A stretch of 22,488 bases of DNA from a virus. The position numbers and the translations under genes were made by a program. Under the pieces are notes generated by a model. The model was not told the DNA's origin and made no database searches. It was given only the letters and a program-made list of their open reading frames with translations. The stretch is from positions 1 to 22,488 of the IMG/VR virus record IMGVR_UViG_3300032249_000208, one strand, 5' to 3'. Shown here piece after piece: positions 1 through 15,568 of the stretch (its first letter is position 1; every line of letters starts with the position of its first letter).

Positions 1-1
1 A

Positions 2-117
2 AAACCCCTTTGGGTTGCTCTAAGTTGAACCCGCTTTAGGAAGCACTCCACAGGCTTTCCAAAACGCTCAAAGCAACCCAAAAGGGTCTTAATGGAGTTC
101 TACTAAACAGGGTTCAA
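2..117. repeat. Two crossing inverted repeats left of the regulator gene
   Basis: Bases 2-19 and 72-89 are near-perfect reverse complements (arms AACCCCTTTGGGTTGCT and AGCAACCCAAAAGGGT). Bases 25-32 (TTGAACCC) and 110-117 (GGGTTCAA) form a second exact 8-base pair. The two pairs cross rather than nest, so if both formed in one RNA they would make a pseudoknot. Each arm of the first repeat is also a small self-complementary hairpin; on the minus strand the leftmost one ends in TTTT at the window edge. It could be a leftward terminator for the regulator transcript, protein-binding sites, or a structured RNA. No coding region is seen in 1-142. Confidence 0.45.
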
Positions 118-142
118 TCTGCTTGTACAGTATACAACAAAA

Positions 143-382
143 TCAACGCAACTCAGGCCATATCAAATGGTATGAGTCAGGAAATAAGTCTTTACGGCTT
201 ACTAAACCTTTGGATTCTTGCTCCAACAAAGCCCCTAAATAGACCATTTTATCGGCAGGGATACCTGAGTTTTTCCACATAGACACCGCAGGTACGCTAA
301 TTTTGCAGATTTTGGCTATTTTGGTAGGCCCACCCAGTAACTCGATAATTTGGCTATCGGTAAATACGCTTTTCTTCTTCAT
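143..382 (-). CDS. YdaS/Cro-like helix-turn-helix regulator
   Basis: A 79-residue protein. A helix-turn-helix can be read at about residues 18-40, GPTKIAKICKISVPAVSMWK, followed by a GIPADK turn. The C-terminus, SRKDLFPDSYHLIWPEL, is the conserved tail of small YdaS/Cro-type phage regulators, which bind operator DNA between divergent promoters. Length is normal for the family. It sits divergently from the early operon, where a phage repressor or Cro gene is expected. Its start codon lies 6 bases after a predicted -10 box, so the mRNA should be leaderless, and there is no good Shine-Dalgarno sequence. Whether it is the lysogeny repressor or the Cro-like partner cannot be decided here, because no second repressor is in view. 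Confidence 0.8.
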   Translation of the reverse strand: MKKKSVFTDSQIIELLGGPTKIAKICKISVPAVSMWKNSGIPADKMVYLGALLEQESKGLVSRKDLFPDSYHLIWPELR

Positions 383-388
383 TAAGCT

Positions 389-417
389 ATCTTACCAAAT
401 AAACAACGCAGATTCAA
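389..417 (-). promoter_or_regulatory. Leftward promoter of the regulator, predicted leaderless
   Basis: On the minus strand TTGAAT (417-412) is followed after exactly 17 bases by TAAGAT (394-389). The normal start point about 7 bases further on coincides with the A of the ATG at 382, so the transcript would begin at or next to the start codon. This resembles lambda cI made from its maintenance promoter. No start site has been measured. Confidence 0.6.
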
Positions 418-422
418 ATAGT

Positions 423-451
423 TTGCACTTTTTTTTAATTTGCCTTAATAT
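423..451 (+). promoter_or_regulatory. Rightward early promoter
   Basis: TTGCAC (423-428), a 17-base spacer rich in T, then TAATAT (446-451): a near-consensus sigma70 promoter for the early operon. Its -35 is only 5 bases from the -35 of the leftward promoter, so one bound regulator could affect both. The same two hexamers at the same spacing recur at 2475-2503. Confidence 0.7.
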
Positions 452-457
452 GGTGGT

Positions 458-471
458 ACAGCATAAGCTGT
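458..471. promoter_or_regulatory. Candidate operator, inverted repeat
   Basis: ACAGCATAAGCTGT is a 5-base inverted repeat around an ATAA centre. It covers the expected start point of the rightward promoter (-10 at 446-451). The half-site TAAGCT also occurs at 383-388, directly between the leftward -10 box and the regulator start codon. The position fits an operator for the adjacent regulator, but binding is inferred only. Confidence 0.4.
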
Positions 472-489
472 TTACTTTTGGAGATGATT

Positions 490-702
490 ATGGATGACTT
501 ACAGGAATTACATAACGAAATGATGGCAGAGCAAGAACGCCTGAATATAGCTTTAGATAAGGCAGAGGATGGTGATATGTTGACTTTGGCAGAAATTGAC
601 CTAATTAGGTTTCATTGTGGCTTACCCAATAAGCGTAGGATTAGCCCCATTTTGGGTACGATTTTTGACGATTTTTCTAATATTTTTGGGGGGAAACAAT
701 GA
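490..702 (+). CDS. Small acidic early protein, unknown function
   Basis: First gene of the rightward operon, 70 residues from the ATG at 490. This start is preferred over the upstream TTG (478) and ATG (484) because GGAG at 480-483 is then 6 bases away. The N-terminal half is a charged, likely helical stretch (DDLQELHNEMMAEQERLN); the middle has LTLAEIDLIRFHCGLP; the end is hydrophobic and glycine-rich. I do not recognise the family. Its stop overlaps the start of the SSB-like gene (ATGA at 699-702), which suggests coupled translation and a role with DNA replication or recombination. Confidence 0.7.
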   Translation: MDDLQELHNEMMAEQERLNIALDKAEDGDMLTLAEIDLIRFHCGLPNKRRISPILGTIFDDFSNIFGGKQ

Positions 703-1313
703 TTGTGACAGGCACAACTACAGAAAAGAAAGAGTTTAAGGTAGCCCCAGTAGGGTCGCACCTAGCTCGTTTATACCGAATTATTGACTTAGGTACACAG
801 AAGTCCGAGTACATGGGTCAAGTCAAGATGCTACGCAAAGTGAAGTTCTTTTGGGAGCTTCATGGCGATGATTTAAAGATTGAGGGCAAGCCCCTTATCC
901 AAACACGCAACTACACGCTGTCGCTAGGCGATAAGGCTTCGTTACGGAAGGACTTGGAATCTTGGCGTGGCAAATCATTTACCGATGATGAGTTGCGTGG
1001 CTTTGATTTACGCAATTTGTTAGATAAATGGTGCATGGTTACTGTTCAGCATAGAACCGCTAATAACGGCAATACCTACGCTGATGCGGTGGCTATTACC
1101 CCAGTTCCCGCAATCGTACAAAAAGCGGGTGTACCACAGGGCGTAAACCCATGCGTATTGTTTGACTTGCAGAAGTTTGACCAAGAAGTATTTGACAGCT
1201 TATCGCAAGGTCTAAAAGACCAAATCATGCTGTCAGCCGAGTACCGCAATACTTTTACCGATGTAAATAAGAAGTTGCAAGACGCAGCAATAGAAGACGA
1301 CATTCCATTTTAG
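699..1313 (+). CDS. Phage single-stranded DNA-binding-like protein
   Basis: A 204-residue protein. Residues about 20-60 (SHLARLYRIIDLGTQKSEY, then a KMLRKVKFFWEL segment) match a phage family usually annotated as ssDNA-binding or recombination-associated. The last residues, EDDIPF, copy the acidic tip of bacterial SSB, which recruits replication and repair partners. A beta-rich core with GKSFTDDEL and DLRNLLDKWCMVTVQHR fits an OB-like fold. A GGGGGGAAAC ribosome site precedes the ATG, which overlaps the previous stop. The PD-(D/E)XK nuclease two genes downstream supports a DNA metabolism role: the SSB would coat DNA exposed by replication or resection. Family assignment is from recalled sequence pattern. 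Confidence 0.75.
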   Translation: MIVTGTTTEKKEFKVAPVGSHLARLYRIIDLGTQKSEYMGQVKMLRKVKFFWELHGDDLKIEGKPLIQTRNYTLSLGDKASLRKDLESWRGKSFTDDELRGFDLRNLLDKWCMVTVQHRTANNGNTYADAVAITPVPAIVQKAGVPQGVNPCVLFDLQKFDQEVFDSLSQGLKDQIMLSAEYRNTFTDVNKKLQDAAIEDDIPF

Positions 1314-1336
1314 GGGGTAACTTTTAGGAGCGAGCT

Positions 1337-1534
1337 ATGAACCACATGATTAAAGACTTTATTGACCAAAAATATACAGTCAAGACCTTTCAAGAACGGG
1401 GCTACGATGAAGAAGTACCCATTATCGGGTTTGCCCAAGATGACTTGGAAACTGTCATTAAGACTGTGGTTCAGGCTTGTGCCGACAGGGTTAAAAACTC
1501 AGACGATAGAATGGCTGTGCTACAGTTAATGTAA
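1337..1534 (+). CDS. Small conserved-type phage protein, unknown function
   Basis: 65 residues, starting 6 bases after a clean AGGAG (1326-1330). It is mostly charged and likely helical, with DDLETVIKTVVQACADRVK as the best helix and no membrane segment or metal motif. It lies between the SSB-like gene and the PD-(D/E)XK nuclease in the same direction and probably the same transcript. No function can be assigned. Confidence 0.7.
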   Translation: MNHMIKDFIDQKYTVKTFQERGYDEEVPIIGFAQDDLETVIKTVVQACADRVKNSDDRMAVLQLM

Positions 1535-1552
1535 TGTTTAACAGGGGGAATT

Positions 1553-2296
1553 ATGTTAGTAAAAGAGAATACAAGTGAGAGCGGTCATTGGTACTTACCC
1601 GATGGCAGTCCAGCCTATCGCATCATTGGCAAGAACGGGAAAGAAAGAAACTCAACTGTCAAAGACGCAAGAGAACATGGCTTATTGCCCTCAGTTACCA
1701 CAATTATTGGTTGTGCGTCAAAACCCGCATTGGATGTATGGAAACAACAACAAGCCATATTGTCCGCTCTTACATTACCTCGCTTAGAGGGTGAATCTGA
1801 GGAAGATTGGCTAAGTCGAGTCGTTGCTGATAGCAAGGAAACCGCCAAGCAAGCAGCAGAACGGGGAACGCAGATACATGGGGTCATAGAAGCCTTCTAC
1901 GAGGGCATTTACATACCTGAGCTACCACCCTATGTCCGAGCCGTAGAAAACGCCATAAACGAGCATTTTGGCTCACAGCTATGGATTTCTGAGAAGTCCT
2001 TTGCTTATGGTGGTTTTGGCGGTAAATGCGACCTAGTTGCTAAGTCAGGATTTGTGGTTGACTTCAAAACGACTGAGAAAGACTTAGACAAGCTCGATTA
2101 CTTCTTTGACCACCAAATGCAACTGGCGGCTTATAGACAAGGGTTTGAGATGCCCAAAGCTCGATGTGCGATTGTTTATGTTAATGCCCTACAAAATAAG
2201 GCTAAACTAGTCGAGATACCTGAAGATGACCTGCGAATCGGGTGGGATTGTTTTACGCATCTTTTGGCGTTTTATCGGGCAAAGAATAAACTATAA
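1553..2296 (+). CDS. PD-(D/E)XK nuclease, Cas4/RecB-like phage exonuclease
   Basis: 247 residues. The conserved order of this nuclease superfamily is visible: RGTQIH (H109) with a following IEAFYEG, E147 in SEKSFAYGG, D160 in GGKCDLVA, the VVDFKTT motif (D170, K172), and QLAAY (Q190, Y194) as the QxxxY motif. These residues bind metal and cut DNA in RecB, Cas4 and lambda exonuclease relatives. AGGGGGAA precedes the ATG at 1553. With the SSB-like gene in the same operon it probably serves phage recombination or DNA processing, though no annealase is in the window. Degradation of host DNA is an alternative. The catalytic residues look intact. Confidence 0.85.
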   Translation: MLVKENTSESGHWYLPDGSPAYRIIGKNGKERNSTVKDAREHGLLPSVTTIIGCASKPALDVWKQQQAILSALTLPRLEGESEEDWLSRVVADSKETAKQAAERGTQIHGVIEAFYEGIYIPELPPYVRAVENAINEHFGSQLWISEKSFAYGGFGGKCDLVAKSGFVVDFKTTEKDLDKLDYFFDHQMQLAAYRQGFEMPKARCAIVYVNALQNKAKLVEIPEDDLRIGWDCFTHLLAFYRAKNKL

Positions 2297-2297
2297 T
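2292..2297 (+). promoter_or_regulatory. Candidate -10 box for the structured RNA
   Basis: TATAAT overlaps the nuclease stop codon. A start 7 bases downstream would fall on the GGGGTGGC stem at 2304. No good -35 hexamer lies 16-18 bases upstream (the bases there are TTTTAT), so this could be a weak promoter or chance. Confidence 0.25.
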
Positions 2298-2303
2298 GAT
2301 TAC

Positions 2304-2452
2304 GGGGTGGCGGCAATCCCCCTGCCACAATCTCCTTCACACCGAGGGCCACCCCACCTTTACAGGGCGGTTAAGCAAGCGTTAGAGGATGCTTGGATAA
2401 AGGGTTTTCTTGCTTTCCCCCCAATTTAGCCAAATCTACGCCCTGTTTTTTT
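2304..2452 (+). ncRNA. Candidate structured RNA ending in a terminator
   Basis: No credible gene lies in 2297-2531, yet pairing is dense. GGGGTGGC (2304-2311) pairs with GCCACCCC (2348-2355) and encloses GGCA/TGCC (2312-2315 with 2323-2326). A second domain is closed by ACAGGGCG (2362-2369) with CGCCCTGT (2439-2446), and contains AAGCAAG (2373-2379) with CTTGCTT (2409-2415). Alternative partners exist: GTGGC with GCCAC at 2324-2328, and CAAGC (2376-2380) with GCTTG (2391-2395). The closing stem runs into a T tract. It may be a small RNA, a leader-type switch at the end of the early transcript, or an elaborate terminator. I cannot match it to a known RNA family. Confidence 0.45.
2362..2452 (+). 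terminator. Rho-independent terminator with a large nested loop
   Basis: ACAGGGCG (2362-2369) and CGCCCTGT (2439-2446) form an 8-base stem running directly into TTTTTTT (2446-2452). The 69-base interior folds further. It follows the nuclease gene and precedes a fresh promoter, so it probably separates two rightward transcription units. Confidence 0.55.
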
Positions 2453-2474
2453 ATACACTAGGGAAACTACCTAG

Positions 2475-2503
2475 TTGCACTATATGTTAAGTTGGCTTAA
2501 TAT
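2475..2503 (+). promoter_or_regulatory. Second rightward promoter
   Basis: TTGCAC (2475-2480), 17-base spacer, TAATAT (2498-2503): identical hexamers and spacing to the early promoter at 423-451. It follows the terminator at 2452 and drives the small-gene operon starting at 2532. The operator-like inverted repeat of the first promoter is not seen here. Confidence 0.65.
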
Positions 2504-2531
2504 TTAATCGTTGTTTAACTAAGGGGGATTT

Positions 2532-2624
2532 ATGAAAGACTTTTTATTAGGTATGGTTGCAGGTGTGTTGGCGTTTGGCATACCTGCTATTGTTTATGTG
2601 TGGAGAACTGGGGGAATATCATGA
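2532..2624 (+). CDS. Tiny single-span membrane protein
   Basis: 30 residues from the ATG at 2532, preceded by AAGGGGGA (2521-2528). Sequence begins MKDFLLGMVAGVLAFGIPA and continues IVYVWRTGGIS: one hydrophobic helix of about 20 residues with a basic residue on each side. Its stop overlaps the next start as ATGA (2621-2624), the same coupling used throughout this operon, which supports it being real despite its size. First gene after the 2475-2503 promoter. Function unknown; a membrane role next to a lipoprotein suggests action at the host envelope. Confidence 0.6.
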   Translation: MKDFLLGMVAGVLAFGIPAIVYVWRTGGIS

Positions 2625-2872
2625 AATACGCAATCGCACTATTAACCGCATTATTAGGGGCTTGTTCATCGTTTGAGCCACCCAACGCTACACTAGAAAC
2701 AGATAAGACTGTTTTTCACATGACTCGTAGTCAGGTTATCTTGGCTATTAATGAATGTGAGTCAGCCAACACAAGACCAATAGTCATCGAGGCTAGGCGT
2801 AAGATTAACGGGGTAACGACTACTGTACCCGTTGAAGTGACCTGCCATCCACGCTATAAAATTTTTTACTAG
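2621..2872 (+). CDS. Small phage lipoprotein
   Basis: 83 residues from the ATG at 2621. The upstream in-frame start at 2600 is rejected because it would place a charged extension before the signal peptide and ignores the GGGGGA site at 2609-2614. The N-terminus is a lipoprotein signal, KYAIALLTALLGAC, with lipobox LGAC and acceptor C15. The mature part is about 68 residues with two further cysteines, C46 and C75, that could form a disulfide in the periplasm. The motif NECESANTRPIV and a PVEVTCHPR end look like a conserved phage family. It could be an outer-membrane superinfection-exclusion protein or an o-spanin-like factor, but it lies in an early-type operon away from the lysis genes. Confidence 0.75.
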   Translation: MKYAIALLTALLGACSSFEPPNATLETDKTVFHMTRSQVILAINECESANTRPIVIEARRKINGVTTTVPVEVTCHPRYKIFY

Positions 2873-2880
2873 GGGGTAAT

Positions 2881-3084
2881 ATGATTGGTACTGTAACGAT
2901 TGGCGATACGCCTGTTGATGTATATGGCACAGAACTGCCTGCTGAACCTGCTGTTGGCATTATGGGCAATTATGTTGAGATTGAGGACTTAGAAGTAGGC
3001 GGCATTAGCATCTATGAAATGGTCGCTAACAACCCAATCTTTGAGCAAATCCAAGAAGCAATCAACGATATGGTGAACTCATGA
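2881..3084 (+). CDS. Small acidic protein, unknown function
   Basis: 67 residues, preceded by TAGGGGGT five bases before the ATG. The composition is acidic and beta-like at the start (IGTVTIGDTPVDVYGTELP), with a helical end (NNPIFEQIQEAINDMV). No membrane segment or recognised motif. Its stop overlaps the next gene (ATGA at 3081-3084). Third gene of the small-gene operon; no function assigned. Confidence 0.65.
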   Translation: MIGTVTIGDTPVDVYGTELPAEPAVGIMGNYVEIEDLEVGGISIYEMVANNPIFEQIQEAINDMVNS

Positions 3085-3422
3085 AAACTACAGCAATACG
3101 AAAATCTATGGATGGTATGTCAGCAGCAAGCAATAGTTGTTTTCCTACTTCTGCAAAAAAAACTCAAAAAATTAAATGGCTAGATAACAAAGAATTGTAT
3201 AAAGCCAACATTACAGGCCATGAACGAGTAGTTACTCCAGTTCATTTTGCTACGGATATTCACAAAAAGCCTTATTTAATGGATTGTGTAACTGGCACTT
3301 TATATAGACCTGATGACGGAAGTTGTGCAAGTTCTGATACTTTAAAAATTATTAAATTTACTAAGTCTGATGATTTAAAGCCCGTTTTAATGAAAATTAA
3401 AGTTCAAGAGGTGATTGAATGA
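3081..3422 (+). CDS. Hypothetical basic protein
   Basis: 113 residues, translationally coupled by ATGA to the gene before (3081-3084) and the gene after (3419-3422). It is lysine-rich, with a low-complexity N-terminus (SAASNSCFPTSAKKTQK) and a middle that reads like a small beta domain: HERVVTPVHFATDIHKKPYL, then MDCVTGTLYRPDDG. The DNA is visibly more A/T-rich than its neighbours, which may mean separate acquisition. I do not recognise it. Confidence 0.65.
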   Translation: MKTTAIRKSMDGMSAASNSCFPTSAKKTQKIKWLDNKELYKANITGHERVVTPVHFATDIHKKPYLMDCVTGTLYRPDDGSCASSDTLKIIKFTKSDDLKPVLMKIKVQEVIE

Positions 3423-3664
3423 AAGCATTTCCAAGCACAGAACCTATTTATGGCGATAACATTGTTGGCGTTAAACAAAGCACAGGCATGGATTTACGGG
3501 ATTACTTTGCTGCCAAAGCATTTCAAAGTTTAATATCTTACGCCCTTCCTGATTGCGTTTATTACACTATAGACAACCAATCAAGAATTGAAATAGGAAT
3601 AGAAATTTTGGCTAAAGATGCTTATTTATTTGCTGATGCCATGATGAAAGCGAGGACAGAATGA
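3419..3664 (+). CDS. Conserved small phage protein of the GMDLRDYFAAKA type
   Basis: 81 residues. The motif GMDLRDYFAAKAFQSL near residues 22-37 and the C-terminal LAKDAYLFADAMMKAR are shared by many small phage proteins of unknown role, typically encoded among early genes. It is soluble, with no signal or metal site. The ATG overlaps the previous stop. The next tiny gene starts at 3661, overlapping this stop by four bases. Function remains unknown; family recognition is from memory of the motif. Confidence 0.7.
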   Translation: MKAFPSTEPIYGDNIVGVKQSTGMDLRDYFAAKAFQSLISYALPDCVYYTIDNQSRIEIGIEILAKDAYLFADAMMKARTE

Positions 3665-3747
3665 ACCTATTTGTAGCTACAATTTTGTTCGTTTTATTAG
3701 CAGTAGCGTGTACAACTCTAGGTTACATTTTAGGGGGGTATTTATGA
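3661..3747 (+). CDS. Tiny membrane protein
   Basis: 28 residues, beginning MNLFVATILFVLLAVACTT and ending LGYILGGYL. It is essentially one hydrophobic helix with a cysteine at residue 17. It starts at ATGA overlapping the previous stop (3661-3664) and ends by overlapping the next start (ATGA, 3744-3747); the two couplings argue that it is translated. VACT is not a standard lipobox, and the signal lacks basic residues, so membrane insertion rather than lipidation is expected. Function unknown. Confidence 0.5.
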   Translation: MNLFVATILFVLLAVACTTLGYILGGYL

Positions 3748-3947
3748 ATGTCCCATACAACAACGGCAAAGTACAAATCGGTAAGTATTATGTACCACCT
3801 AAATATGTTGAAAAAGACACCGATATGCTTGAGCTTCAGTCTTATTTAATCTATGACCCAGCCCGTCTTAACAGGGCTTATTGGACTGAAAAAGGTCTGT
3901 TACTATTAGGACTCTTTATTGTCTTGGTTATATTCCTCAAGAGCTAG
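3744..3947 (+). CDS. Small C-tail-anchored membrane protein
   Basis: 67 residues from the ATG at 3744, chosen over upstream 3708 because of AGGGGGG at 3732-3738 and the ATGA overlap with the preceding stop. The first 47 residues are polar (VPYNNGKVQIGKYYVPPKY, then LELQSYLIYDPARLNRAY). The last 17, GLLLLGLFIVLVIFLKS, are a membrane helix, giving an N-in/C-tail topology. Last gene of the rightward operon. Its 3' end overlaps the endolysin 3' end by 42 bases on the other strand. Unknown function; a membrane-located accessory or immunity role is possible. Confidence 0.65.
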   Translation: MNVPYNNGKVQIGKYYVPPKYVEKDTDMLELQSYLIYDPARLNRAYWTEKGLLLLGLFIVLVIFLKS

Positions 3948-4445
3948 TTTTCTAGCATCCTCAACCCGATTAAGCCAACCTTTAATAAAGCGAGCTTGGT
4001 CGGGTTTTCTTGCCACTATGCCTTGATAGAAGTCTGCCCTAGCGTCTGAAAACTTTGCAATAAGGTCTTTAGGGTTTGCATCATTAATTGCTGCCATAGT
4101 CTTAGGCCCGATAACTCCATCACTAACGCATCCGATTGCCTGTTGTAGCGTCTTAACGCTTCTGCCTGTGCCTGCATTAACGGCAAAATCGAATACCACA
4201 TAATCTAAGCCTTTCGGTAGGACTTCACAATAACTAGGATTCCAATACTTTAGTTTATACATTGAGCCGACTTTTTCGGGGGTCAAGGCTCGCATATCGG
4301 CTTCGGATACAGGATGCCCCACAAATTCTTCCCAAACACGCTTAGTAACGCCTAGATTCGTCATACCGCCTGAGTCTAGGGGGTCATTAACAAAACCGCC
4401 CTCGTGCTTTAGGATGCGTTTTAAACACTTCTCAAATCGGCTCAT
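3906..4445 (-). CDS. Endolysin, glycoside hydrolase 108 lysozyme
   Basis: 179 residues. The GH108 signature is clear at residues 14-34: HEGGFVNDPLDSGGMTNLGVT, split as catalytic glutamate E15 in EGGF and the DSGGMTNLGVT segment. The C-terminal half (LQQAIGCVSDGVIGPKTMAA, then FIKGWLNRVEDAR) corresponds to the peptidoglycan-binding domain usual in this family. It cleaves the glycan strands of peptidoglycan. There is no signal peptide or signal-arrest helix, so it should stay in the cytoplasm until a holin opens the membrane, consistent with the putative holin gene immediately upstream. It is the last gene of the late operon. Confidence 0.92.
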   Translation of the reverse strand: MSRFEKCLKRILKHEGGFVNDPLDSGGMTNLGVTKRVWEEFVGHPVSEADMRALTPEKVGSMYKLKYWNPSYCEVLPKGLDYVVFDFAVNAGTGRSVKTLQQAIGCVSDGVIGPKTMAAINDANPKDLIAKFSDARADFYQGIVARKPDQARFIKGWLNRVEDARKLALEEYNQDNKES

Positions 4446-4461
4446 AGCCTAACCATGCGGT

Positions 4462-4830
4462 TCATTTTTTTAGGTTTGCCATGATGCGACTACCAAATAG
4501 AAATCCAAAGGCTATGTTGGCAGCTTCTAAGCCGATGCGTTGAACATATTGGTCAACAGGTAAGAATAAGGTAGATAAACCCACCACAATGACTGTTAAC
4601 GCCCCTAAATAACGGCTAGACGCTCTTAAATCTATAACCCATTGGCTAGGTTGCCCAAACGGGTTATCGAGCTTGGCAAGGGCTTCTAGACGAGCAATTT
4701 CGCTGTTATCAAGCTGAATTTGCTCGGCAATAGTGGTTGGGCGAACTCCACCATTAAAACGCCCTATAAGCTGTTTAATGCCTTCTACGCCTACTGGAAC
4801 TAATGCCCCGATGATAGTTTCTATAATCAC
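4462..4830 (-). CDS. Putative holin
   Basis: 122 residues starting with GTG at 4830, which overlaps the stop of the preceding gene (GTGA), indicating coupled translation. There is an amphipathic N-terminus, a charged middle (TIAEQIQLDNSEIARLEALA), and hydrophobic helices at about residues 74-92 (YLGALTVIVVGLSTLFL) and 98-115 (IAFGFLFGSR). It resembles the three-TM holin family found next to GH108 endolysins. It would form the inner-membrane lesion releasing the endolysin. The assignment rests on position and topology more than on sequence identity. Confidence 0.65.
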   Translation of the reverse strand: MIIETIIGALVPVGVEGIKQLIGRFNGGVRPTTIAEQIQLDNSEIARLEALAKLDNPFGQPSQWVIDLRASSRYLGALTVIVVGLSTLFLPVDQYVQRIGLEAANIAFGFLFGSRIMANLKK

Positions 4831-4994
4831 TTAGGTAGCGACCATCCATGAGTAGATAGGTAGGCATAACCTAGACCACCGACAAAGACATAAAACAATG
4901 TTCTTAGTGAGAACCAACCAAACTGGCTTACTTTCTCATTTAACCATTCTTTAATGGCTTCTTTAACTACTTCTTTTTGGATTTCGTTAGGCAT
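4827..4994 (-). CDS. Small membrane protein of the lysis cassette
   Basis: 55 residues, MPNEIQKEVVKEAIKEWLNE onward. A charged helical N-terminus precedes a single hydrophobic stretch (FGWFSLRTLFYVFVGGLGYA). Its start overlaps the stop of the upstream basic-protein gene by eight bases, and its stop overlaps the holin GTG. Between a basic protein and the holin it may be an accessory holin, antiholin or i-spanin-like protein. The helical N-terminus is too short for a typical i-spanin coiled coil. A tight overlap at both ends supports reality. Confidence 0.65.
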   Translation of the reverse strand: MPNEIQKEVVKEAIKEWLNEKVSQFGWFSLRTLFYVFVGGLGYAYLSTHGWSLPK

Positions 4995-5154
4995 TTTTCT
5001 TCCTAACTGTAGTCTTTTTAACAGCAGGTTTACGCTTAACCGCAGGTTTTTTGGGCGTGGCTTTTACTTCACCTTGCCAATCATTGAGAATAGTAAGCCA
5101 ATGCACCTTTTTGGTGTAGCCCATCTTATCGCACATCCAATCAATTAGGAACAT
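4987..5154 (-). CDS. Small protein with a histone H1-like lysine/proline tail
   Basis: 55 residues. The N-terminal half, MFLIDWMCDKMGYTKKVHWL, is compact and aromatic. The C-terminal half is very basic, with a tandem KPAVKR/KPAVKK repeat and a TTVRKKNA end. Such tails bind nucleic acid or acidic surfaces. It starts 14 bases inside the end of the fibre-assembly-like gene and overlaps the next gene by eight bases, so it belongs to the lysis/tail end of the late operon. Function unknown. Confidence 0.65.
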   Translation of the reverse strand: MFLIDWMCDKMGYTKKVHWLTILNDWQGEVKATPKKPAVKRKPAVKKTTVRKKNA

Positions 5155-15056: not shown

Positions 15057-15085
15057 ATCCCCATATTGTGATAACGGAGATTCTT

Positions 15086-15568
15086 ATGGAAGAATGGCGT
15101 GATGTTGTTGGATTTAAAGGTTTGTATGAAGTTTCTAATCATGGAAATGTTCGTTCCTTTAAAAAGAAAAAACTTAAAAAAATTAGCGTTGATAAAAAAC
15201 TTAATCGACCTTTTGTAAACCTTTGGAAAGAAAACAAGCCATATGTTCGAAAACCACATAAACTTGTTCTTGAAGCATTTGTTAGTGTTTGCCCTGAAGG
15301 AATGGAAGGTTGCCATAACGATGGAAACTCTTTCAATAACCATGTTGAAAATTTGCGTTGGGATACTCACAAAAATAACATTCTTGATAAGTTTGGACAT
15401 AACACCAGTAATAGTGGAGAACGCTGTAATTGGGCTAAATTGAAACAATTTCAAGTTGATGCCATTCGTAAGGACAATAGAATTCAACGCATTATTGCGG
15501 AAGAATATGGCGTAAAACAAAGCCTTATTAGTCGAATTAAAAATGGCATTCGCTGGAAACATCATTAA
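15086..15568 (+). CDS. HNH homing endonuclease with NUMOD4 domain
   Basis: 160 residues from the ATG at 15086, six bases after GGAGA; earlier in-frame starts lack a site. A NUMOD4 domain occupies residues 2-25 (EEWRDVVGFKGLYEVSNHGN), then an HNH_3 nuclease at about 55-100: HKLVLEAFVSV, CHNDGNSFNNHVENLRW, DTHKNN. A C-terminal DNA-binding helix-turn-helix follows at 118-160 (DAIRKDNRIQRIIAEEYGVK, then QSLISRIKNGIRWKH). It would nick or cut a specific site and spread itself between phages. It is the only plus-strand gene in the late region, A/T-rich and Lys-rich. Its TAA shares bases with the adaptor stop on the other strand (TTAA, 15565-15568). Confidence 0.92.
   Translation: MEEWRDVVGFKGLYEVSNHGNVRSFKKKKLKKISVDKKLNRPFVNLWKENKPYVRKPHKLVLEAFVSVCPEGMEGCHNDGNSFNNHVENLRWDTHKNNILDKFGHNTSNSGERCNWAKLKQFQVDAIRKDNRIQRIIAEEYGVKQSLISRIKNGIRWKHH

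Follow-up and report, generated by a model that had tools for sequence, protein, structure and literature searches.

Transcribed from PRM, the cI gene of phage lambda gives a leaderless repressor message. This example is also named in a study of the PaaR2/YdaS region of CP-933P (PMC8630535), in which the YdaS footprint overlaps both divergent promoters and the exact site is left open. That a cro message can be leaderless is an idea already known, from phage PY54, whose cro and cI transcripts start at the AUG as mapped by RACE (PMC4488713). Stem-loops and 5′ untranslated regions are named among the features that protect bacterial mRNA in a review (PMC7509114).

Here we describe a divergent switch in the IMG/VR record IMGVR_UViG_3300032249_000208, the whole of which (22,488 bases) was analysed and is called the window throughout. 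Its minus strand carries head, tail and lysis genes. We consider it rather probable that this is an early control switch, built from a leaderless cro message, a Cro protein acting on TTAAG-N4-CTTAA sites and a hairpin at +1 that would protect the rightward mRNA, with no CI found in the window. Two promoters stand back to back, as an earlier note on this DNA had claimed. The leftward one, on the minus strand, combines a −35 box TTGAAT (412–417; TTGATA in many relatives) with a −10 box TAAGAT (389–394) extended by TG at 397–396, and the rightward one, on the plus strand, a −35 box TTGCAC (423–428) with a −10 box TAATAT (446–451); both spacers measure 17 nt and the −35 boxes lie 5 bases apart (ATAGT, 418–422). 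Leftward transcription would serve a 79-residue regulator of cro/ydaS type (143–382, minus strand), whose ATG (382–380) has no clear ribosome site. In the rightward direction, a Shine–Dalgarno sequence GGAG (480–483, plus strand, duplex −6.4 kcal/mol) precedes a first gene of 70 residues (490–702, plus strand), for which searches of Pfam and PHROG gave nothing up to E 1.

The promoter matches in the window are weak (8 and 7 of 12), and neither is listed in a consensus scan at 9 of 12. Of 2000 dinucleotide shuffles of 383–489, 1061 contained a leftward pair that matched as well or better (8 of 12), 1976 such a rightward pair (7 of 12, spacer 17), 921 a perfect 5-bp inverted repeat with a loop of 3–6 and 48 a −10-like hexamer placed exactly 6 nt upstream of the ATG. 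Judged by the window alone, most of these features are thus close to what chance gives, and it is comparison with relatives that decides which of them exceed it; the promoters and the −10-to-ATG spacing do so because they are conserved in relatives.

The comparison drew on 64 regulator loci in IMG/VR, on 80 of the 327 relatives returned by a regulator profile search (19 of the 80 being new) and on 80 of the 105 relatives found for the rightward gene, many of them on contigs shared with the regulator set; the related records are not independent of one another, and many are fragments. Across loci L001–L060 the regulator protein is at least 91% identical, and several types can be told apart in the DNA upstream of it. 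The sole match among genome contigs (L066), from a Bacteroidota bin, was counted with the other loci. The window itself (L065) and L061 (incomplete) were left out of the leader geometry, and L133 (too short) out of promoter anchoring; L158 and L161 are absent from the rightward-promoter anchoring set and present in the fixed-position operator scoring. A blastn search of window positions 1–5000 against named phages gave a single match, of 99 bases at 758–856, away from the switch.

A probable hairpin at the predicted rightward start

An exact inverted repeat, ACAGC-ATAA-GCTGT (458–471, plus strand), lies where the rightward mRNA is predicted to start. Individually the window hairpin is weak, being matched by 17 of 200 leader shuffles (the rightward leader folds with a z of −1.15). 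Its counterpart is the most stable hairpin in all 38 distinct 50-base rightward leaders (104 loci), and in all 38 it starts at most 3 bases from the predicted +1. We infer the position of this +1 from a hand-made arm list plus a TTG at −35 (101 loci, 35 distinct promoters), most firmly in lineages with a near-consensus promoter (TTGACA); an automatic best-promoter picker placed the rightward promoter of the window group elsewhere.

The arms of the hairpin covary. In hand-chosen arm lists, which do not include L067 and L076 because their arms have four bases, seven distinct five-base pairs of arms form 35 of 35 standard pairs, a result equalled by 2 of 5040 permutations. With the Manatee Spring phages added, ten such pairs of arms form 50 of 50, against a mean of 34.4 when permuted, and 0 of 100,000 partner permutations reach that score. 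Pair 3 of the hairpin is seen as all four Watson–Crick pairs, and the arm sequences include ACAGC, ACGGA, ACCGA, ACGGC, ACGGT, CCTGA, ATGGC, GTAGC and CTAGC. Loops measure 4 or 5 nt among regulators sharing one recognition helix and 4 to 6 nt across the five-base arms, while G–U pairs occur in the hairpins of L158–L165, L067 and L076. Covariation by itself would also be compatible with a DNA site, since palindromic DNA sites keep symmetry too. Because arms and loop change under a constant helix (SVPAVSMW), because some pairs are G–U and because the position tracks the predicted +1, we read the repeat as an RNA rather than a DNA element: the mRNA probably begins with a hairpin at 458–471, which is probably not an operator.

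Its most likely job is to shield the rightward mRNA from decay that depends on the 5′ end, with the GGAG left free. The same structural data would also suit an action on initiation, in which the hairpin would affect promoter escape, cause pausing early in transcription or be bound by another RNA-binding protein. A place at the first transcribed bases suits initial transcription, and the leaders of the second promoters described below show no comparable hairpin by eye; the loop sequences, however, differ among lineages, which argues against a loop-specific protein site. We regard a role in initiation as possible but doubtful, and prefer protection of the mRNA from decay.

The regulator and the start of its message

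The earlier suggestion of a YdaS/Cro-type protein is borne out by profile matches. The regulator exceeds the cut-off of 30 for Pfam YdaS_toxin (6e-8, 32.8 bits) and matches the PHROG 35 repressor at 1e-12; against Pfam P22_Cro it scores 26.3 bits (6e-6), under the curated cut-off of 30.2, which the L109 relative passes at 33.2. The predicted fold (mean pLDDT 84.5) is nearest to Xfaso 1 Cro and to YdaS of CP-933P, with P22 Cro at rank 13, and no match in the fold search fell below E 0.001.

Opposite cro the window has an early operon with an exonuclease gene, and the Manatee Spring phages have, opposite their homologue, an early operon with erf and single-strand-binding genes. Neither HTH_3 nor S24, both CI-type, was found in any of 14 related records or in the window record, and neither the tyrosine nor the serine recombinase family (PF00589, PF00239) in any of 12 related records or in the window, all of these being records that may be fragments; S24 was detected in both temperate controls. 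A missing CI or integrase is not proof, records often being fragments. Since the gene is Cro/YdaS-like and the CI-type and integrase families were not found, early control here seems to be of a Cro-only kind. An ordinary lysogeny switch, whose CI partner would be encoded elsewhere or belong to a family that was not recognised, would accord with the possible fragmentation of the records and with the Acinetobacter, Acidovorax and Bordetella phages, in which the homologue lies opposite a CI or Xre gene; we hold it to be improbable in view of these absences, of the S24 found in the temperate controls and of the gene opposite cro, which begins an early operon. The parallel once drawn with lambda cI and its maintenance promoter holds for the 5′ end of the message, but not for the protein, which matches the Cro/YdaS families and stands opposite CI or Xre genes in the temperate relatives examined.

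Very probably, the message of this presumed Cro has its 5′ end at the start codon and is leaderless. With 6 nt from TAAGAT to the ATG, the leftward +1 is predicted to fall on the first base of the cro start codon. To describe this geometry in relatives, the best TAnnnT hexamer was scored 3–12 nt before the ATG of the first gene. All 38 distinct upstreams (106 loci) have one at 5–9 nt, the distance being 6 nt in 22, 7 nt in 12 (34 of 38 at 6–7 nt), 5 nt in two, and 8 and 9 nt in one each. At the 27 other gene starts of the window, TAnnnT lies at 5–9 nt in 1 and anywhere in 3–12 nt in 5. Pairing with the anti-Shine–Dalgarno sequence reaches −5.4 kcal/mol or lower at 22 of these 27 starts, a strong ribosome site being missing at five of them as well, and −2.9 kcal/mol at cro (20 nt upstream). 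The leaderless regulator message proposed earlier is backed by this geometry, and the accompanying statement that the protein would be made without a ribosome site agrees with the short distance and the weak duplex at cro.

The 6 nt before the ATG vary by type within the window family (AGCTTA, TGCTTA, GACTTA, ACCTTA, AATTGA, ATTTGA). The type with TAAGAT-AATTGA-ATG has no −35 at the usual distance and carries TGn. An in-frame TGA directly before the ATG in one upstream type fixes the start of cro. The spacing is kept in relatives at 57–66% identity, and also where the rightward gene pairs with QAVHRW or QAVHKW regulators instead of SVPAVSMW. By eye, it measures 6 nt in two distant Manatee Spring phages and in a Bordetella phage homologue, and 7 nt in an Acidovorax phage homologue if the second ATG is the start, the record annotating a start further up; Acinetobacter homologues differ, with a leader carrying AGGAG.

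Other genes can occupy the same place. In L002–L005 and L007 an HNH endonuclease gene (2219–2554 in L002, with counterparts in the other four; Pfam HNH_3, 1e-13) sits between promoter and cro, its own ATG in the arrangement TAAGAT-6 nt-ATG and the cro ATG overlapping its stop as ATGA. In L160, a single contig, an HNH_3 domain is fused in frame to a Cro-type domain; the start of this minus-strand ORF is 5 nt from the −10 and lies 112 bases to the left of the rightward gene. The predicted leaderless position goes to whichever gene comes first. A regular-expression scan of 80 HNH loci for Cro neighbours gave none beyond the five already known. Elsewhere in the window, a NUMOD4-HNH endonuclease ORF (15068–15568, plus strand) lies antisense among structural genes.

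If transcription instead began further upstream, cro would have a short leader and the −10 spacing would be coincidental. The weak promoter consensus of the window and the 8–9 nt spacing in two of the 38 upstreams would fit such a leader, as would a few relatives with ribosome-site-like bases further up, namely L067–L069, L073, L074 and L076 (duplex −4.2 to −5.4 kcal/mol). Those pairing bases, however, lie by eye in or above the −10 and would be absent from a leaderless message, and the hexamer present at 5–9 nt in every distinct upstream, the TGA directly before the ATG and the HNH genes at the same position all argue against a leader. We think a short leader quite unlikely and retain the leaderless start.

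Palindromes on the promoters

TTAAG-N4-CTTAA is the likely operator of the Cro-type protein. It is present with one mismatch at the regulator promoter (382–395, −13 to +1) and at the rightward promoter (435–448, −23 to −10), and a perfect candidate, TTAAGTTGGCTTAA (2487–2500), lies at a second rightward promoter read from the sequence (TTGCAC-17-TAATAT, 2475–2503, plus strand). These three are the only window sites with at most one mismatch, against 1.65 expected. As 20 of 100 shuffled windows hold at least three operator-like sites, the number in the window is not unusual, and it is the places, all on promoters, that are telling. Allowing two mismatches gives 19 window sites, no more than chance.

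Perfect sites number 0–3 per related record, with at least one in 11 of 13 records, and a backward-read control gave 0. All 19 perfect sites in the 13 related records lie within 3 kb of the switch, where 3.3 would be expected if they were uniform. TTAA at −23 is found in 29 of 35 distinct rightward promoters; the six promoters without it are five with QAVHRW/QAVHKW regulators, plus L076. When the SVPAVSMW group was scored at fixed positions, leftward sites matched 6–9 of 10 letters and rightward sites 7–10, the upstream mean being 3.1, and the leftward sites of L067–L069 and L076 matched 6 of 10. The sequence ANTNAAG with N4 spacing, which we take to be the P22 half-site, fits TTAAG-N4-CTTAA. 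For the QAVHRW/QAVHKW regulators we tentatively propose TAAAC-N4-GTTTA as a candidate operator; it is perfect at the leftward promoters of L109 and L113 and partial elsewhere, and similar sites in L109, L113 and L130 lie near the usual operator places, which is suggestive only.

Two further motifs were considered and set aside. A CAAA...TTTG palindrome between the promoters is, by eye, mostly the two −35 boxes back to back, with varying spacing. TTAA-N6-TTAA, taken as a CII-like direct repeat, gave way to TTAAG-N4-CTTAA because the latter accounts for the third site as well as for both promoters.

Behind the second promoter, an ORF of 30 residues (2532–2624, plus strand), read by eye, has a stop that overlaps the next ATG. 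Similar promoters lie downstream in relatives, and the second-promoter pattern is present in two copies in 47 of 169 loci, many of which overlap. On the cro strand, L004 (3745) and L023 (3650) carry a further promoter of the same kind, about 650–750 nt behind the cro start. In L169 (5434–5487, MW202674), a second promoter with operator has a hairpin ATGGC/GCCAT at its predicted +1.

The earlier note had placed the operator at 458–471, with a half-site TAAGCT at 383–388 and bound Cro blocking both directions, a reading that we judge highly unlikely: the repeat is exact and stands at the predicted rightward start, and TAAGCT is indeed found both inside it and at 383–388, but arms and loop (4–6 nt) change even under the same recognition helix, G–U pairs appear in L158–L165, TAAGCT is not kept at all leftward starts and in the window sits inside the palindrome at 382–395, and it is this other, better conserved palindrome that lies on both promoters. 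Repression in both directions nevertheless remains probable, by way of the conserved palindromes.

With TTAAG-N4-CTTAA as operator, the parts of the switch could work together as follows. Transcription from the leftward promoter would begin at the first base of the cro start codon or beside it, as the conserved geometry suggests, and cro would be translated from a leaderless message. A Cro dimer would bind the palindromes at 382–395, 435–448 and 2487–2500, and Cro, as it accumulates, would turn the early operons down; the position of the sites and the YdaS/Cro relatives point to both the binding and the direction of control. The hairpin at 458–471, whose structure is supported by covariation, would form the 5′ end of the rightward mRNA and might slow its decay.

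The neighbouring RNA and known systems

Downstream of cro, positions 1–117 (minus strand) encode a structured, strongly covarying RNA with an 8-bp helix H1, an H2 of about 7 bp and an H3 of about 20 bp, folding at −54.4 kcal/mol (z −6.3). Because H3 crosses H1 and H2, the RNA would be a pseudoknot or a two-fold switch; H3 followed by U4 looks like a terminator-like end. A −10 box TATACT (129–134, minus strand) probably belongs to a promoter of its own, and 50 of 53 copies have TATACT or TATAAT in the 30 nt that precede them. Trained on 10 copies, a covariance model scored above 58 bits in 53 of 84 sources, two of the matches being second stretches of contigs already counted (L167, L168), while L162 and L164 scored 43 bits; the symmetry of the RNA explains weaker matches on the opposite strand. 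Of 14 records, 8 contain the RNA; in L006, L020 and L024 it is separated from cro by several hundred more bases, and a pattern scan of IMG/VR found it in at least 119 stretches. One 44-kb contig, 3300047557_000594, has the pattern in two stretches (L276, L284).

The alignment comprised 36 of the 38 distinct sequences, L138 and the sequence shared by L162 and L164 being left out as divergent. Two-sided changes are seen at 7 of 8 pairs in H1, 5 of 5 in H2 and 5 of 22 in H3, and 95.5% of cells pair, against 30–55% when the alignment is slid. In fixed columns 79% of H2 cells pair, with register shifts among copies; in free register H2 forms 7.0 pairs, against 3.8 with partners mixed between copies. 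Among named phages, blastn found no more than a 29-base match in three records (E 0.4). Rfam gave nothing at gathering score and nothing credible below it, the best matches (E 0.29) being to two microRNA models far below gathering. A literature search for the structured RNA at 1–117 did not find it, which is thin evidence of novelty.

It is conceivable, though on balance we doubt it, that this phage group has swapped CI control for a Cro-only switch with messages specialised at their ends: a leaderless cro start captured at least twice by HNH genes, a covarying +1 hairpin on the opposite operon and, behind cro, an unnamed RNA of pseudoknot topology, whose terminator-like stem H3 would compete with or stack on H1/H2 and gate the replication operon. 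Leaderless regulators are usually treated as single cases; the predicted start geometry described here is shared by many phages and taken over by inserted genes, and it would offer a natural series in which to test leaderless initiation. Simple mutations could separate the likely operator from the +1 hairpin. The locus also illustrates how misleading a perfect inverted repeat can be when it stands at the start of a promoter's transcript, here being more likely an RNA element than an operator. The neighbouring structured RNA is a separate, possibly larger prize.

Compared with lambda, where the leaderless gene is cI, the predicted leaderless gene of the window is cro-like. The cI and cro genes of PY54 are divergent as in the window, and this temperate telomere phage has CI and one Cro operator (PMC4488713), whereas in the window no CI was found, several likely operators are proposed and the +1 hairpin is on the opposite mRNA. 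In CP-933P the YdaS homologue is the Cro analogue and a leaderless regulator lies in the same intergenic region, but the leaderless gene there is the CI analogue PaaR2 (PMC8630535); in the window it is predicted to be the YdaS-type gene itself, for which a candidate binding site is now proposed. The regulator shares with P22 Cro, of the Cro/c2 operators, a match to P22_Cro, although below the cut-off and with no CI found in the window. Lastly, in comparison with protective stem-loops, the window hairpin belongs to an early operon of a phage and stands at its predicted +1, where it would stabilise the message and where its structure is kept rather than its sequence.
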